Assembly: GCA_017622255.1 (NCBI GenBank)
Contig: JAGARL010000236.1
Location: forward strand, 1-10,578
From: Methanocorpusculum sp.
GTDB taxonomy: Archaea > Halobacteriota > Methanomicrobia > Methanomicrobiales > Methanocorpusculaceae
DNA: 10,578 nt
Direction: 5' to 3'
How positions within the stretch are numbered: the stretch's first letter is position 1; every line of letters starts with the position of its first letter. Position numbers and translations under genes: made by a program. The notes under the pieces were generated by a model. The model was not told the DNA's origin. It worked only from the letters and a program-made list of their open reading frames with translations, and made no database searches. Positions 2,244-6,825 of the stretch are shown piece after piece.

Positions 2244-2251
2244 TTTAAATA
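2244..2251 (+). promoter_or_regulatory. TATA box of the tRNA-Cys/SepCysS unit
   Basis: TTTAAATA is a near-perfect archaeal TATA box, preceded by an A-rich BRE-like stretch. Transcription would begin around 2272-2278, inside the inverted repeat at 2270-2296, leaving a leader of roughly 40 nt before the first tRNA. No other good promoter is seen before SepCysS. Confidence 0.7.
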
Positions 2252-2269
2252 TTCACAGTGTGTATCATT

Positions 2270-2296
2270 ATTCACACAGTGATTCTCTGTGTGAAT
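2270..2296. promoter_or_regulatory. Perfect 10-bp inverted repeat at the predicted transcription start (candidate operator)
   Basis: ATTCACACAG (2270-2279) pairs exactly with CTGTGTGAAT (2287-2296) around a 7-nt spacer. A related half-site, ATTCACAGT, sits just upstream at 2251-2259 beside the TATA box. The dyad covers the expected transcription start, a usual place for archaeal repressor binding. The function as an operator is inferred. Confidence 0.5.
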
Positions 2297-2313
2297 GAGC
2301 AAGCACAGAGAAT
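2282..2313 (+). promoter_or_regulatory. Second perfect 10-bp inverted repeat in the tRNA leader
   Basis: ATTCTCTGTG (2282-2291) pairs with CACAGAGAAT (2304-2313) around a 12-nt loop, ending 3 nt before the first tRNA-Cys. It shares bases 2287-2291 with the preceding dyad, so as RNA the two hairpins cannot form together. It could act as a processing structure for the tRNA 5' end or as part of a switch. Confidence 0.45.
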
Positions 2314-2316
2314 TGT

Positions 2317-2388
2317 GCCAGGTTGGCGGAGTGGTAACGCGACTGCCTGCAGAGCAGTTTTTCTCCCGTTCGAACCGGGAACCTGGCT
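2317..2388 (+). tRNA. tRNA-Cys (GCA), copy 1
   Basis: A 72-nt cloverleaf. Acceptor stem GCCAGGT/ACCTGGC has 7 bp, the D stem is GCG/CGC, the anticodon stem is ACTGC/GCAGT, and loop CTGCAGA gives anticodon GCA (2349-2351). The variable loop is 5 nt, the T stem is TCCCG/CGGGA with loop TTCGAAC, and the discriminator is T2388. CCA is not encoded. G1-C72, U73, the GCA anticodon and G37 match the elements known for recognition by phosphoseryl-tRNA synthetase in methanogens. It differs from copies 2 and 3 by T instead of A in the D loop (2335). Confidence 0.97.
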
Positions 2389-2404
2389 TGTCCCGAAAAG
2401 GACA
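2389..2404 (+). other. GAAA-loop hairpin abutting the 3' end of tRNA-Cys copy 1
   Basis: TGTCCC-GAAA-AGGACA begins on the base after the discriminator. Five base pairs form, with a C-A mismatch closing the GAAA loop. The same hairpin follows copies 2 and 3. Confidence 0.6.
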
Positions 2405-2417
2405 TAAAAGCAAAGAT

Positions 2418-2489
2418 GCCAGGTTGGCGGAGTGGAAACGCGACTGCCTGCAGAGCAGTTTTTCTCCCGTTCGAACCGGGAACCTGGCT
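2418..2489 (+). tRNA. tRNA-Cys (GCA), copy 2
   Basis: Same 72-nt cloverleaf as copy 1, starting exactly 101 nt downstream. The only difference from copy 1 is A for T in the D loop. The acceptor stem, anticodon GCA, T arm and discriminator U73 are unchanged. CCA is not encoded. The 29-nt spacer from copy 1 contains no TATA box, so copies 1 to 3 are probably cut from one precursor. Confidence 0.97.
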
Positions 2490-2505
2490 TGTCCCGAAAG
2501 GGACA
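2490..2505 (+). other. GAAA-loop hairpin abutting the 3' end of tRNA-Cys copy 2
   Basis: TGTCCC-GAAA-GGGACA, six perfect base pairs closed by C-G over the GAAA loop, starting right after the discriminator. Confidence 0.6.
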
Positions 2506-2518
2506 AAAAAGCAAAGAT

Positions 2519-2590
2519 GCCAGGTTGGCGGAGTGGAAACGCGTCTGCCTGCAGAGCAGATTTTCTCCCGTTCGAACCGGGAACCTGGCT
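2519..2590 (+). tRNA. tRNA-Cys (GCA), copy 3
   Basis: Same 72-nt cloverleaf, again 101 nt downstream of the previous copy. Relative to copy 2 the top anticodon-stem pair changes from A-U to U-A (T2544 with A2560), a compensatory double change that keeps the stem intact, as expected for a functional gene. G1-C72, U73 and anticodon GCA are kept. CCA is not encoded. The next gene starts only 63 nt downstream. Confidence 0.97.
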
Positions 2591-2606
2591 TGTCCTGAAA
2601 AGGACG
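2591..2606 (+). other. GAAA-loop hairpin abutting the 3' end of tRNA-Cys copy 3
   Basis: TGTCCT-GAAA-AGGACG, closed by T-A over the GAAA loop, with a U-G wobble at the base. Compared with the copy-2 hairpin, pairing is kept although bases differ. Confidence 0.55.
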
Positions 2607-2610
2607 AAAA

Positions 2611-2628
2611 CCGCACATAAACCTGCGG
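2611..2628 (+). promoter_or_regulatory. Small hairpin between tRNA-Cys copy 3 and the downstream mRNA
   Basis: CCGCA (2611-2615) pairs with TGCGG (2624-2628) over an 8-nt loop, just upstream of the GGAGGA site. It might stabilise the 5' end of the mRNA after tRNA processing. No T-run follows, so it is not an evident terminator. Confidence 0.3.
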
Positions 2629-2634
2629 AAAAAT

Positions 2635-2640
2635 GGAGGA
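2635..2640 (+). promoter_or_regulatory. Shine-Dalgarno GGAGGA that decides the small-gene start
   Basis: GGAGGA lies 13 nt before the ATG at 2654. An in-frame ATG at 2633 overlaps this site and has no ribosome binding site of its own, so 2654 is preferred even though the spacing is long. Confidence 0.5.
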
Positions 2641-2653
2641 CAGAAAACAACAA

Positions 2654-2833
2654 ATGTCACAAAAATCAATTGATGCGGTTTTCGCCGGTCTCTATGCCTT
2701 TACCGACATACGAGGCCTTCTGCGGAAATCCGCACCTCAGCACATCTTAACGCCGGAGGAAAAGGAACAGATACTCACCGCAGGAAACACCATCCGCACA
2801 GCTATTGCAGATATCGAGCGTGATCTGATATGA
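2654..2833 (+). CDS. Small helical protein coupled to SepCysS; candidate truncated SepCysE-like partner
   Basis: This gene encodes 59 residues (66 if the ATG at 2633 is used). The sequence suggests a helical hairpin: a first helix at about 3-25 (IDAVFAGLYAFTDIRGLLRK), a turn around Pro28, and a second helix at about 34-58 starting at TPEEKE. It is acidic-basic mixed, with no cysteines and no signal peptide. Its stop overlaps the SepCysS start in ATGA (2830-2833), so translation is probably coupled. In some archaea, shortened homologs of the SepRS/SepCysS scaffold SepCysE are reported to be fused to, or encoded next to, SepCysS; position and size here fit that pattern. The assignment rests on context; I cannot align it to SepCysE by eye. 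Confidence 0.7.
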   Translation: MSQKSIDAVFAGLYAFTDIRGLLRKSAPQHILTPEEKEQILTAGNTIRTAIADIERDLI

Positions 2834-4005
2834 TTCCTGCAGGAAACGTTGACACCCGGTTCGTAGAAGAAGGATTCATCAACCTCGACCCGATTCAGGC
2901 GGCAGGAAGACTCACCCCCGAAGCCATGAAAGCGGTAATTTCCTGGGGAGACGGATACTCCGTCTGTGATCACTGTCACAAACCGTTCCGTCTCGACTAC
3001 GTGAATAACCCGCCGGTTGCAGACTTCCATGAAGAAGCAGCCAAATGGCTCAACATGGACTCCGTCATGCTGACGCCCGGAGCACGCAGAGCATTCCAGG
3101 TTGTTACCGGAACTCTGGTTGGAAAAGGCGAACCGGTAGTCATGACCGGAATGGGACACTATACTGCATACCTCTCCGTAGAAGTCGTGGACGGAATTGT
3201 CCGGGAAATCAAACCGACACCGGACCATCACATAACTGCAGAAGAAACAGCAAATGCCATAGAAGACAGTATCCGGGAAGTAGGAACACCGAAACTGGTC
3301 TTTGTTGACGCAGTTGATTTCATGTATGGAAACATGCACGAAGTAAAAGAGATTGCCAAAGTCGCTCACCAGTATGACATCCCGGTTCTCTATAACGGCG
3401 TCTATACTGTAGGCGTCCTCCCGGTCGACGGAAAGAAACTCGGCGTGGACTTCATCGTCGGCTCCGGACACAAAAGCATGGCAGCACCTGCCCCGTCAGG
3501 ACTCCTTGCCGTAAACGAAGAGTACGCAGATTCCATAACCCGTACAACAAAAATCCAGGGAAACGTCACCGGCAGAAAATTCGGAATCAAACAGGTCGGA
3601 ATCCTCGGCTGTTCACTGATGGGAGATCCGGTTGTCGGATTAATAGCCTCCTTCCCCACAGTAAAAGAACGGGTAAACCACTTCGACGAGGAGCTCGCAA
3701 ACCACAAAATCGTAACAGACGCACTGATGTCTATCGAAGGAACAAAAGTCGCATCGGAATACCCGAGAAGACACACCTTAACCCGCATGGACACCACCGA
3801 GTCATTCAACGTCACCGCACAGACGCACAAAAAACGCGGATTCTTCCTCTCAAGCGGCCTTGCAAAACGCGGCATCACAGGAATCATGCCGGGCGTTACC
3901 AAACAGTGGAAGTTCAACACCTACGGACTTACCAGACCGCAGGCGGAATACTTAGCCGACGCGTTTCTGGACATTGCAGAAGAAAACAACCTGGCAATAC
4001 ACTAA
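2830..4005 (+). CDS. pscS: O-phospho-L-seryl-tRNA:Cys-tRNA synthase (SepCysS)
   Basis: This 391-residue PLP enzyme of the fold-type I family converts phosphoseryl-tRNA-Cys to cysteinyl-tRNA-Cys, the tRNA-dependent route to cysteine in many methanogens. The N-terminal segment INLDPIQAAGRLTPEAMKAVISWGDGYSVCDHC is diagnostic. Cys46 and Cys49, with Cys261 in GILGCSLMG, match the three catalytic cysteines known in the family (Cys64, Cys67 and Cys272 in Methanocaldococcus jannaschii), implicated in persulfide or Fe-S sulfur transfer. The PLP lysine is Lys215 in GSGHKSMAAP. A GTGAT motif (2820-2824) lies 5 nt before the start, and the ATGA overlap with the small gene suggests coupling. Three genes for its substrate tRNA lie directly upstream. 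SepRS, the partner that loads phosphoserine, is not in this window. Confidence 0.96.
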   Translation: MIPAGNVDTRFVEEGFINLDPIQAAGRLTPEAMKAVISWGDGYSVCDHCHKPFRLDYVNNPPVADFHEEAAKWLNMDSVMLTPGARRAFQVVTGTLVGKGEPVVMTGMGHYTAYLSVEVVDGIVREIKPTPDHHITAEETANAIEDSIREVGTPKLVFVDAVDFMYGNMHEVKEIAKVAHQYDIPVLYNGVYTVGVLPVDGKKLGVDFIVGSGHKSMAAPAPSGLLAVNEEYADSITRTTKIQGNVTGRKFGIKQVGILGCSLMGDPVVGLIASFPTVKERVNHFDEELANHKIVTDALMSIEGTKVASEYPRRHTLTRMDTTESFNVTAQTHKKRGFFLSSGLAKRGITGIMPGVTKQWKFNTYGLTRPQAEYLADAFLDIAEENNLAIH

Positions 4006-4090: not shown

Positions 4091-5506
4091 TTATGCTTTC
4101 CTGCCGGATGCAAGACTGTCGCTTGTGAGCATGCCGACAACCTTTCCCTGACAGACAACCGGCAGAGCAGAAATATGATACTTCTTCAGACGCTGTGCCG
4201 CCTCCGGGAGAGAGTCTGTCGGCTCTGCGGTAATCACCGATGTGGTCATCACTTCGCGCAGACTGCCGAGGCCAAACGCCACTGACTTTGCAACATCAAA
4301 AGAGGTCACAATGCCTTTCAGGATGCCGTCTTCTGAAACAACCGGCAGATGGTCAGTCCCTTCAGAGACCATCATCTTCGCCGCTTCAGAAAGAGTGGCA
4401 TCACAGTGAATCACCGGCGGGTTGACCTTCATCAAATCTGCAACGGTCTGCGGAGTCAGGAACTTTCCCAGAAGATAGTTCAGCTGACTGAACTCAAGCA
4501 GAAATCCGTCATGACCGAACGGAGAGATAATCTCCGCATACTCCGCATCCTTTCCGGATGCCCGCAGGGCAGATACAATCTCCCCGGAAAGAACAGACGG
4601 ATAGAGCCAGTCGGAAGATACCGACAGAATGAGAAACTGTGCATTTGCACAGGCAAGTCCTGCAGCAAGACTGCCGTCTTTTGTCAGATCATAATAATCC
4701 AGCGCTTTGGTAATGTAGAGATACGAATCCGCGTCGAACCGCTTCACAAAGGACTCACCCTGATGACTCAGATATGTCTCCACGGAAAACTCCGGCGCGA
4801 AATCAAAGGAACGCTCATCGGCATACTGCAGTCTGCGGCCGAACTTCTCGTACATTGACTCCTCGGAGAGATACGTAATATGCGCCATCATCCGGGCAAG
4901 AGCGAGTCCGCCGTCCTTTTCCCGGAGAACCGCGGCGCGCTGCACGGCATTAAAGGCAATGTGCATCGGCGTAGAGTAGCCGGAGGAGGCGATTACTACA
5001 GCTTTCCGGAGAAAATCCGGATAGAGAACAGCCCAGGTAAGCGTCTGCATGCCGCCCATAGAGCCCCCTATTACTGCATAGAGATGCGACACCCCGTGTT
5101 CCGTCAGGAACTGATGCTGTGCGCGAACCATATCGGTTATCGTAATCACCGGAAACTCGCGGCCGTAGGGCTTTCCGGTCTGCGGATTGCGCGAGGACGG
5201 ACCGGTGGAACCGGCACATCCGCCGATGACATTAGTACAGATAATACAGTACCGCGCAGTATCGAGAGCCTTTCCCTCGCCGATAACCCCATCCCACCAG
5301 CCGGATTTTGTCTCTCCGGCATGTGTTCCTGCCGCATGCGCATCGCCGGATAACGCATGACAGAGAAGGATGACCGGATTTTCCAGGCTTCCGTACTGTT
5401 CATAGGCAATCTCCGCATCTTTGAGCTCCGCCCCGCACTCAAGGCGAAGCGGAGACTGCAGACGATGGACTTCTGTCCGGACGGTGCCGACTGAATGCTG
5501 TGCCAT
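4091..5506 (-). CDS. metX: Homoserine O-acetyltransferase fused to a C-terminal CBS-domain pair
   Basis: This gene encodes 471 residues. Residues 1 to about 350 are an alpha/beta-hydrolase of the homoserine acetyltransferase family, which transfers acetyl from acetyl-CoA to homoserine for methionine synthesis. The triad is visible as Ser149 (GGSMGG), Asp299 (SSDWLYP) and His332 (FGHDGF); GGCAGSTGPSS (95-105) is another family block. Residues about 361-410 and 417-467 form two CBS motifs (DHLPVVSEDGILKGIVTSFD and ISALPVVCQGKVVGMLTSD). CBS pairs bind adenosyl ligands, so control by SAM, AMP or ATP is likely, but the ligand is inferred. The start lies 3 nt after the metY stop with only a weak Shine-Dalgarno, consistent with coupled translation. 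Succinyl- rather than acetyl-CoA use cannot be excluded from sequence alone. Confidence 0.93.
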   Translation of the reverse strand: MAQHSVGTVRTEVHRLQSPLRLECGAELKDAEIAYEQYGSLENPVILLCHALSGDAHAAGTHAGETKSGWWDGVIGEGKALDTARYCIICTNVIGGCAGSTGPSSRNPQTGKPYGREFPVITITDMVRAQHQFLTEHGVSHLYAVIGGSMGGMQTLTWAVLYPDFLRKAVVIASSGYSTPMHIAFNAVQRAAVLREKDGGLALARMMAHITYLSEESMYEKFGRRLQYADERSFDFAPEFSVETYLSHQGESFVKRFDADSYLYITKALDYYDLTKDGSLAAGLACANAQFLILSVSSDWLYPSVLSGEIVSALRASGKDAEYAEIISPFGHDGFLLEFSQLNYLLGKFLTPQTVADLMKVNPPVIHCDATLSEAAKMMVSEGTDHLPVVSEDGILKGIVTSFDVAKSVAFGLGSLREVMTTSVITAEPTDSLPEAAQRLKKYHISALPVVCQGKVVGMLTSDSLASGRKA

Positions 5507-5509
5507 AGT

Positions 5510-6772
5510 TCAGATTCGGGAGAATGCCTGCTCCAGGTCCGCAATGATATCCTTCGGATTTTCCAGACCAACGGAAAGACGCAGGGTATCTGCGGTAACG
5601 CCTGTTGTCTCCTGCTCTTCTGGCGTCAGCTGCTGGTGCGTGGTTGATGCCGGATGGATAATCAGCGTCTTTGCATCTCCGATGTTTGCCAGAAGAGATA
5701 TCAGACGAACATTGTTCTGCACAGATACTGCGGCATCATATCCGCCTTTCATGCCGAAAGTAAGAATGGCGCCGCCTTTTCCATCCAGATACTTTTCCAC
5801 ATTCTTTGAAGAAGGCGAGTCAGGCAGTCCCGGATAATTAACCCAGGCAACTTTCGGATGATTTTTGAGATAGAGCGCAACGGTTTTTGCATTCTCCGCA
5901 TGCCGTTCGGTTCTCAGATAGAGCGTTTCCAAGCCCTGCGAAATAAGCCAGGCATTAAACGGAGATAACGCAGCTCCTAAATCACGCATGAGCGAGACGC
6001 GGATGCTGGTTGAGACAACGGAACTGCCAAACGCCTGATAATGGCGCAGTCCGCCGTATGCCGGGTCAGGTTCGGTAAACTTCGGGAACTTGCCGTTGTC
6101 CCACGGGAAGTCTCCTTTTTCGATAACTGCCCCGCCAAGAGCTGTGCCGTGACCGTTTGCATACTTTGTTGCAGAGAGCACAACAATATCTGCCCCGTGT
6201 TCTAACGGACGCACCAGACCGATTCCGACAGTATTGTCAACAATAAACGGAATTCCGGCACGGTGAGCGATTTTTGCGACTGCCTCAAAGTCCGGCACGT
6301 CAAGTTTCGGATTGCCGACCGCCTCGAAATAAACGGCACGGGTTTTTTCGGTGATGGCATTTTCCAGTGCTTCCAGATCAGAGGATTTGACAAACTTTAC
6401 CGTCCTTCCAAAGTTCGGCAGCGTCAGATGGAACAACTCATACGTTCCTCCGTAGAGGTTGTCCGCCGATACAATCTCGTCTCCCGGATTGGTCAGGGCA
6501 AGAACGGCATAACTGATAGCAGCCATTCCCGACGCGGCAGTAATCGCGGCGCTTCCCCCTTCAATAGCCGCGAGACGGGCTTCCAGAGAGGAGGAGTTCG
6601 GATTGGTAAGACGGGTGTAAATGTTTCCCGGCTCACTCAGGCTGAAACGCCCGGCCGCCTCTGCGGCATCCCGAAACACATATGCGGAGGTCATGTAGAT
6701 TGGTTCAGCACGTGCTCCGGTTTCTTTATCCGGAGACTGGCCGAAATGTATTGCTGCTGTTTCTCGTTCCAT
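5510..6772 (-). CDS. metY: O-acetylhomoserine sulfhydrylase (PLP-dependent, Cys/Met metabolism family)
   Basis: This 420-residue PLP enzyme joins O-acetylhomoserine with sulfide to give homocysteine and acetate, the step after MetX. Family marks are IYTRLTNPN (Tyr52 and Arg54, cofactor phosphate region), SGMAAI, the PLP-ring Asp179 in IVDNTV, and the Schiff-base Lys203 in LSATKYANGHG. Length and the QEETTGVTADTLRLSVGLE C-terminus fit O-acetylhomoserine sulfhydrylases rather than the shorter cystathionine enzymes. I chose the ATG at 6772; a GTG at 6784 would add four residues (M-N-F-I), but a GTGA motif (6782-6785) lies upstream of the ATG at usable spacing. It leads the metYX operon. Its promoter region carries the 13-mer also found at the tRNA-Cys promoter. 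Confidence 0.94.
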   Translation of the reverse strand: MERETAAIHFGQSPDKETGARAEPIYMTSAYVFRDAAEAAGRFSLSEPGNIYTRLTNPNSSSLEARLAAIEGGSAAITAASGMAAISYAVLALTNPGDEIVSADNLYGGTYELFHLTLPNFGRTVKFVKSSDLEALENAITEKTRAVYFEAVGNPKLDVPDFEAVAKIAHRAGIPFIVDNTVGIGLVRPLEHGADIVVLSATKYANGHGTALGGAVIEKGDFPWDNGKFPKFTEPDPAYGGLRHYQAFGSSVVSTSIRVSLMRDLGAALSPFNAWLISQGLETLYLRTERHAENAKTVALYLKNHPKVAWVNYPGLPDSPSSKNVEKYLDGKGGAILTFGMKGGYDAAVSVQNNVRLISLLANIGDAKTLIIHPASTTHQQLTPEEQETTGVTADTLRLSVGLENPKDIIADLEQAFSRI

Positions 6773-6801
6773 TATGAAATTCACTTCGTTAACTTATTAT
6801 T

Positions 6802-6825
6802 ACTGTGAATATTTGCAGTGTTAAC
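6802..6825 (-). promoter_or_regulatory. metY promoter with palindromic operator-like element
   Basis: On the minus strand AAATATTCACAGT (6814-6802) includes a TATA-like AAATATT about 39 nt before the metY ATG, which predicts a leader of about 13 nt. It sits in the imperfect palindrome ACTGTGAATATTTGCAGT (6802-6819; 14 of 18 positions symmetric). A GTTAAC palindrome lies on each side (6788-6793 and 6820-6825). The regulator is unknown. Confidence 0.45.

Follow-up and report, generated by a model that had tools for sequence, protein, structure and literature searches.

The window analysed here is one whole contig of 10,578 nucleotides (nt) from Methanocorpusculum sp. (GCA_017622255.1, JAGARL010000236.1, forward strand), whose assembly, hereafter G000, comprises 1.5 Mb in 322 contigs and is 79% complete. 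Between positions 2244 and 4005 it carries three tRNA-Cys genes, a small protein gene and the gene of SepCysS (O-phosphoseryl-tRNA:Cys-tRNA synthase), which a preliminary description made from the letters had read as one apparent transcription unit, tying the supply of the tRNA to that of the enzyme acting on it. We are concerned with this unit and with the palindromes at its promoter, which had gone unnoticed in that description together with the structured leader and with sites before metY at 6779-6825. The features of the unit are the following (PWM, position weight matrix; aa, amino acids):

2244..2251, plus strand: TATA box TTTAAATA, an 8/8 match to TTTAWATA
2251..2265, no strand: operator-like palindrome 1, ATTCACAGTGTGTAT, 1 mismatch to ATTCACANTGTGAAT; PWM score 19.1, rank 1 in the window
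2270..2284, no strand: operator-like palindrome 2, 2 mismatches; PWM score 17.2, rank 2; 26 nt after the TATA-box start, as in relatives (26-28)
2282..2296, no strand: operator-like palindrome 3, 2 mismatches, overlapping palindrome 2; PWM score 14.0, rank 3; spacing 12 versus 14 in relatives
2282..2313, plus strand: possible RNA hairpin in the tRNA 5' leader, ATTCTCTGTG / CACAGAGAAT, a perfect 10-bp inverted repeat; z -2.73
2317..2388, plus strand: tRNA-Cys(GCA) copy 1 (ARAGORN, Rfam); G37, U73, CCA not encoded
2418..2489, plus strand: tRNA-Cys(GCA) copy 2 (ARAGORN, Rfam); 99% to copy 1
2519..2590, plus strand: tRNA-Cys(GCA) copy 3 (ARAGORN, Rfam); 96% to copy 1, the end pair of the anticodon stem changed from A-T to T-A
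2591..2606, plus strand: 3' trailer hairpin GTCCT-GAAA-AGGAC, read from the sequence
2611..2628, plus strand: leader hairpin CCGCA/TGCGG, by comparison stem 1 of the relatives' pseudoknot; stem 2 not kept
2654..2833, plus strand: SepCysSn-like gene, 59 aa, conserved before SepCysS; in-frame upstream ATG at 2633
2830..4005, plus strand: SepCysS, 391 aa (family models, motifs)

The gene content first proposed was confirmed by ARAGORN, Rfam, family models and a conserved open reading frame (ORF). The three tRNA-Cys genes, which score 55-58 bits in Rfam (E 1e-10 to 6e-10), form a tandem repeat with a 101-nt period, and with their GCA anticodon, G37 and U73 they have the features of an archaeal SepRS/SepCysS substrate, the latter two bases being described as tRNA-Cys determinants (PMC5424206, PMC9499178). 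SepCysS, which had been recognised from its motifs, reaches 555.5 bits against NF006810 (cut-off 301) and 356.9 bits against TIGR02539, slightly below the cut-off of 365.25. Its Cys-x-x-Cys (YSVCDHCH), GHK (SGHKSMAA, with the pyridoxal phosphate lysine) and GC (LGC) motifs align with the solved enzyme 3wkr, and the conserved cysteines take part in persulfide formation (PMC5424206). By SepCysS identity the closest named relatives are Methanocorpusculum parvum XII and two Methanocorpusculaceae metagenome-assembled genomes (83%, the window's own genome possibly left out of the comparison), followed by M. petauri (79%) and Ca. Methanorbis basalitermitum (78%).

The small ORF, whose stop codon overlaps the SepCysS start (ATGA), is open from 2633 to 2833, and the conserved protein begins at its second ATG (2654). 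According to a script pattern, 36 of 41 loci have a small protein directly 5' of SepCysS, and this holds for both copies of the enzyme; the pattern failed at the window's own locus (L031), L034, L045, L058 and L179, at the first four of which a related ORF is nevertheless visible by eye. Residues M1, S2, D7, F10, T17, D18, R20, L23, R24, P28 and H30 are invariant in 14 sequences. The best PDB match of their profile is SepCysE MJ1481, a weak one (E 0.042), which was not retrieved in a search with a single sequence; DUF2100 matches 3 of the 14 members, the window's own not among them (best E 0.0033), and one homologue is annotated as a DUF2100 protein by its source. Given its position, the profile match and DUF2100, with a homology that is suggestive, the ORF is probably SepCysSn. 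It resembles SepCysE and SepCysSn in size, in its position right before SepCysS and in an AP.H.L...E motif, and it departs from SepCysE in comprising just the SepCysS-binding part, in being a gene of its own and in its weak sequence similarity.

As had been stated, there is one good TATA box, the octamer at 2244 being the sole one within 2150-2660 that matches TTTAWATA at 7 or more of 8 positions; relatives likewise carry TATA-like octamers 5' of the tRNA. In these relatives a 13-bp palindrome, TTCACA-N-TGTGAA, often in tandem, lies upstream of tRNA-Cys. Its exact form, TTCACANTGTGAA, occurs at 30 sites in 14 of the 25 genomes of the genus (reversed-pattern control, 1 site), and all 30 precede sulfur genes: the tRNA-Cys/SepCysS unit (19), metY (7), fdhD-like genes (3) and nifS (1). 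With at most one mismatch to the 15-mer ATTCACANTGTGAAT, 47 sites appear in 16 of 33 family genomes, the window's included (control 1); their targets are tRNA-Cys (19), metY (7), nifS (6), metX (5), fdhD (4), larE (2), an MFS transporter (2) and others (2), and 43 of the 47 precede sulfur genes. No such site was found at this threshold in the sister genus (8 genomes), and exact sites occur in 23 of the 150 genomes of the order, that is, in 14 of 25 within the genus and 9 of 125 outside it. Representative downstream genes were identified by family models, the others by likeness to tested members: L107 and L114 (fdhD), L112, L155-L157 and L161 (nifS), L149-L152 (metX), L154 and L147. For some of the ORFs behind sites (fdhD, the nifS of L112, larE) the called start falls before or inside the site, and a start codon 3' of the site is likelier.

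Furthermore, the position of the palindrome is constrained. Counted from the first base of the TATA box (best octamer), it begins 26-28 nt downstream at 13 of 14 relatives' tRNA promoters; at the L041 promoter the best octamer lies 37 nt from the palindrome, but a TATAAATG stands 27 nt away. The same distance recurs at four relatives' metY promoters, and in four relatives the palindrome lies 19 nt before the metY start codon. For these distances the metY of L113, where an upstream in-frame ATG overlaps the site, was dropped, and the promoter of L039, near a contig end, was taken from L065. Sites with at most two mismatches are present at all 15 tRNA promoters in view, window included, and absent from 47,393 bases of 15 hand-chosen background loci. 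Archaeal transcription starts at about this distance from the TATA box, and a palindrome near the expected start site would favour repression over activation. Altogether, a site that is shared by several sulfur genes and rare elsewhere is, as far as genome comparison can tell, the palindromic operator of a predicted sulfur regulon in the genus.

In the window itself, sites were scored with a PWM built from 21 unique sites of relatives, the window excluded; in 100 dinucleotide-shuffled versions of the window the best score averages 4.5. Palindrome 1 is the sole site with at most one mismatch in the whole G000 assembly, and it is counted as an extra site because it stands just 7 nt after the TATA-box start. 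The window's putative operator is degenerate but recognisable.

Downstream of the tRNAs, the 63-nt spacer that separates the last copy from the next ATG (2591-2653) contains no run of four or more T, in agreement with the preliminary description; such runs are located within the tRNAs (2358, 2459, 2561) and at 2679. Hairpins similar to the trailer of copy 3 follow copies 1 and 2 (2389-2404 and 2490-2505), and the fold of 2589-2660, which unites the trailer and CCGCA/TGCGG hairpins, has a z of -4.12. In 14 relatives (L032-L044, L115) an H-type pseudoknot, in which a hairpin loop pairs with a downstream segment, lies between the last tRNA-Cys and SepCysSn. With its stems CCGCA/TGCGG and GTATCY/RGATAY it is found in 14 of 15 leaders, the window being the exception: it lacks stem 2 and is not a full member of the class. 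Among 9 distinct stem sets, 11 of the 12 pairs form in all, with two-sided changes at S1.5, S2.1, S2.2, S2.3 and S2.6; the pairs were counted on an alignment made by hand, because MAFFT had put the 3' strand of stem 2 out of register between the two subgroups. For stem 2, 59 of 63 cells pair versus 52.3 in shuffles, of which 2 in 5000 reach 59 when relatedness is ignored; shuffles of single sequences discriminate weakly, P ranging from 0.002 to 0.173 in relatives and being 0.668 in the window. A search of Rfam with three loci at E 0.5 returned no family except tRNA. Our guess is that the pseudoknot acts in translation control of SepCysSn.

A conserved RNA structure between tRNA and mRNA points to transcription from upstream, and the comparison thus gives strong support to cotranscription of tRNA-Cys, SepCysSn and SepCysS. 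The alternative is that transcription of the tRNAs stops after copy 3 and SepCysSn is expressed from a weak promoter of its own, for which a poor TATA-like CATAAA at about 2616 could serve in the window and for which eight relatives, with 100-181 nt between tRNA and SepCysSn, would have room. Against this speak the absence of any octamer of 6/8 or better in 2150-2660 outside 2161-2251, a spacer free of T-runs, the covarying pseudoknot that fills most of the 58-63-nt spacer of the six other relatives, and a gene order preserved at 14 loci, and we judge separate transcripts unlikely. The single transcription unit first proposed therefore stands in so far as order and short structured spacers are conserved; in the eight relatives with longer spacers a second promoter is excluded less firmly.

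It could also be argued that the palindromes act as RNA, i.e., that upstream of the tRNA they fold into a hairpin which, as leader or attenuator, affects transcription or RNase P processing, and are not a DNA operator. The inverted repeats of the window can indeed form overlapping, mutually exclusive hairpins. A counterpart of the hairpin at 2282-2313 was not noticed in an informal comparison with relatives' sequences. As an attenuator with alternative pairings this hairpin was considered and set aside, since the fixed distance between palindrome and TATA box in relatives favours a DNA site; moreover, the same palindrome stands close before the metY start codon and, without any tRNA, before nifS, metX, larE and fdhD. 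An action through RNA is in our opinion quite improbable, and we retain the DNA operator.

SepCysS is present in 147 of the 150 genomes of the order. At 14 of 30 SepCysS loci, one per genome and all within the genus, 1-3 copies of tRNA-Cys lie upstream, in the order tRNA-Cys, SepCysSn, SepCysS; the remaining 16 (10 in the genus, 6 outside) are without tRNA-Cys in the stretch examined. Together with G126, where it is cut by a contig end, the unit is carried by 15 of the 25 Methanocorpusculum genomes, so that the linkage, for which a survey of relatives had been proposed, is not a peculiarity of the window. Outside the genus, tRNA-Cys was found in 7 of 40 further, hand-chosen SepCysS upstream regions, with three copies at L193. 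This recurrence, also described in PMC5424206, would suit an ordinary linkage in which the array is kept before SepCysS for horizontal co-transfer, as Mukai et al. (2017; PMC5424206) suggested for a Bathyarchaeota operon, with no common control, but such a linkage leaves unexplained why an operator is shared and why it stands before sulfur genes, and appears improbable.

A second SepCysS, of about 70% identity, exists in 11 of the 15 unit-bearing genomes, and its 11 loci examined show neither tRNA-Cys nor an operator site at one mismatch or less. In turn, among 11 tRNA-Cys loci sampled in relatives beyond the unit (L162-L168, L064, L065, L068, L069), 10 lie between 23S and 5S rRNA, the eleventh, L065, being the operator-bearing unit of G070. 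Acceptor pair 5-68 and differences in other arms set the tRNA-Cys of the unit apart from the rRNA-operon copies; G070 and G074 are exceptions, their unit copies being similar to those of the rRNA operons. The anticodon is GCA in all tRNA-Cys compared, and the genus copies have U73 and G37 (A in L044). A DNA search of G000, with the completeness given above, found no tRNA-Cys beyond the window's three. Since relatives have tRNA-Cys in their rRNA operons as well, and a second SepCysS that is not joined to tRNA-Cys, the unit is an added, presumably separately controlled tRNA-Cys/SepCysS set alongside others. The idea that tRNA supply is tied to enzyme supply holds in that the unit joins both, and is loosened by these further sources.

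In the arrays of G074 and G070 (L038 at about 834-960 and 1003-1128 oriented; L039 1-300; the end of L065), tRNA-Cys-like copies of about 126 nt are interspersed, in which the acceptor and T arms are kept and the D and anticodon arms are replaced by GC-rich hairpins. Of the 25 genus genomes two contain the core of these copies, and the same two show partial matches at other places; Rfam gave no credible match. The copies may be a repeat insertion or a structured RNA.

CysRS exceeds its cut-off in none of the 25 genus genomes, the weaker model matches in 24 of them looking like other class I synthetases, and SepRS does so in 21 of 25, among which are all of the 12 near-complete genomes. Without CysRS, the cysteine of translation is made on tRNA-Cys alone, which is why we see tRNA-Cys as a biosynthetic cofactor that would be regulated together with sulfur assimilation. 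We regard it as likely that a putative repressor, bound to the start-site palindromes of the single promoter, controls one transcript of three tRNA-Cys, SepCysSn and SepCysS, under a control shared with sulfur genes, and that the degenerate sites of the window still work. Under sulfur sufficiency the repressor would cover the start site; when sulfur becomes limiting it would leave, in response to a sulfur or cysteine signal, and the single transcript would yield tRNA-Cys, SepCysSn and SepCysS. MetY/MetX and NifS would rise in parallel, with the same operator standing in front of their genes and of further genes of sulfur handling. The tRNAs would be excised by RNase P and tRNase Z, leaving an mRNA with a structured 5' leader, while rRNA-operon tRNA-Cys and the operator-less second SepCysS would provide a baseline supply. 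More tentatively, and with rather less than even confidence, we propose that in this CysRS-less lineage an elongator tRNA-Cys has entered, as a biosynthetic cofactor, the regulon of a transcription factor for sulfur assimilation, the pseudoknot adding in most relatives a second control at the RNA level.

The window also carries metY and metX, convergent with SepCysS:

4091..5506, minus strand: metX, encoding homoserine O-acetyltransferase fused to CBS domains at its C-terminus; lies downstream of metY (family and domain models)
5510..6772, minus strand: metY, O-acetylhomoserine sulfhydrylase; TIGR01326 586.8 bits versus cut-off 495.1; first ATG, in-frame GTG at 6784
6779..6825, minus strand: three weak operator-like sites before metY (6779-6793, 6796-6810, 6811-6825), PWM ranks 4-6

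The three sites score 5.2 (6779), 2.5 (6796) and 4.0 (6811), the next best in the window reaching 0.56. They are suggestive by placement alone, and metY is presumed to be a member of the same regulon. Elsewhere in G000, the nifS ortholog follows a tRNA-Thr-ED gene (L220) and has tandem degenerate sites just upstream (PWM 10.9 and 3.5); an iscU-like reading frame, seen in the sequence alone, comes after it. In G048 (L116) and G126 (L115) metY and the tRNA-Cys unit point away from each other, and each is preceded by operators. CBS domains at the C-terminus of MetX are also found in a relative (L148), and possibly allow feedback control by an adenosyl compound. At 60-440, before a DNA ligase gene, the intergenic DNA of the window is GC-rich and holds numerous short repeats of the kind CTGTCGCTGCGGC, REP-like by eye.

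Several observations weigh against the proposed control. No exact operator site exists in G000, where the tRNA-promoter sites carry 1-2 mismatches, and the top score among the 100 window shuffles is 17.19, exceeding the third site. Taken singly, the metY sites are at the level of chance (6 matches at three mismatches or less in the window versus 4.43 expected, reached by 55 of 200 shuffles), and at the distance usual for the operator they have no good TATA box. Outside the genus there are 11 exact sites in 9 of 125 genomes (3 in G149; control 2), with downstream genes not assigned, and within it 10 of 25 genomes are without the linked unit, two of them (G094, G098) at least 90% complete. SepRS was not found in the 79% complete G000, which may be explained by that incompleteness. 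In Methanococcus voltae, SepCysS levels are reported to be similar on FeS2 and on Fe(II)/sulfide (PMC8516115); this is another methanogen, and the text available from that source describes no sulfur-limited comparison. Finally, a 119-aa MarR-like helix-turn-helix (HTH) protein with four cysteines, tried as the regulator, is not diagnostic because it occurs both in genomes that have operator sites and in genomes that lack them: at E 1e-3 it has matches in 23 of the 25 genus genomes, 22 strong and one (G122) weak and different. Its gene stands directly before SepCysSn and SepCysS copy 2 in G024, G048, G126, G114, G070 and G074 (L170, L171, L179, L046, L177 and L178), and the protein, with its CVACDEECDVEHC-type cluster, is a possible metal or Fe-S sensor.

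tRNA genes are usually regarded as housekeeping genes, often tied to growth rate. The relatives considered here hold ordinary tRNA-Cys in two sets, one in rRNA operons and one with SepCysS behind a sulfur-gene operator, which makes possible a direct test of whether a tRNA is regulated as a biosynthetic cofactor; the same arrangement suggests a reason for the two SepCysS copies of many of these methanogens, one of which would be constitutive and the other regulated. Moreover, a defined archaeal sulfur operator offers a handle for finding its regulator.

H-type pseudoknot leaders include riboswitches such as preQ1 and SAM-II. The relatives' pseudoknot resembles these in having two stems before a start codon and, in one subgroup, an A-rich last loop, and is set apart from them by the ligand, assigned for the riboswitches and for the pseudoknot not, and by the missing Rfam match in the loci searched.

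The arrangement of the genes is already known in kind. Ca. Bathyarchaeota BA2 has an operon tRNA-Cys-SepCysSn-SepCysS-SepRS, and clade VII SepCysS loci are often linked to tRNA-Cys, sulfur genes and tRNA-Thr-ED (Mukai et al., 2017; PMC5424206). The window shares with BA2 the same-strand order tRNA-Cys, SepCysSn, SepCysS, and differs from these loci in that its unit has no SepRS, its tRNA-Cys are three in tandem, and tRNA-Thr-ED lies elsewhere with nifS. The shared operator and the leader pseudoknot belong to the window's genus, and the available text of PMC5424206 does not mention them for BA2 or clade VII. A search of open-licence literature, supplements excluded and mostly at the level of titles and abstract starts, found nothing on this operator, on sulfur control of tRNA-Cys or on a SepCysS leader element; as far as this literature goes, the leader pseudoknot is new, and so is a shared operator whose regulon counts a tRNA gene among its members. 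SepRS-SepCysS operons, sometimes with tRNA-Cys, occur in DPANN, early-branching Euryarchaeota and bacteria (2022, PMC8762117): both they and the window's unit link genes of indirect cysteine synthesis to tRNA-Cys, but those are built around SepRS, and no operator is described in the text available from that source. Bacterial cysteine regulons such as that of CmbR are similar in placing sulfur amino-acid genes under one regulator, and differ in being bacterial and, in the part of PMC5131005 at hand, in naming no tRNA gene as a member. Another case is pylT in the pylSBCD clusters (PMC5424206), also a tRNA gene clustered with enzymes that act on it, although, unlike the tRNA-Cys genes of the window, it encodes a dedicated pyrrolysine tRNA and not a standard elongator.

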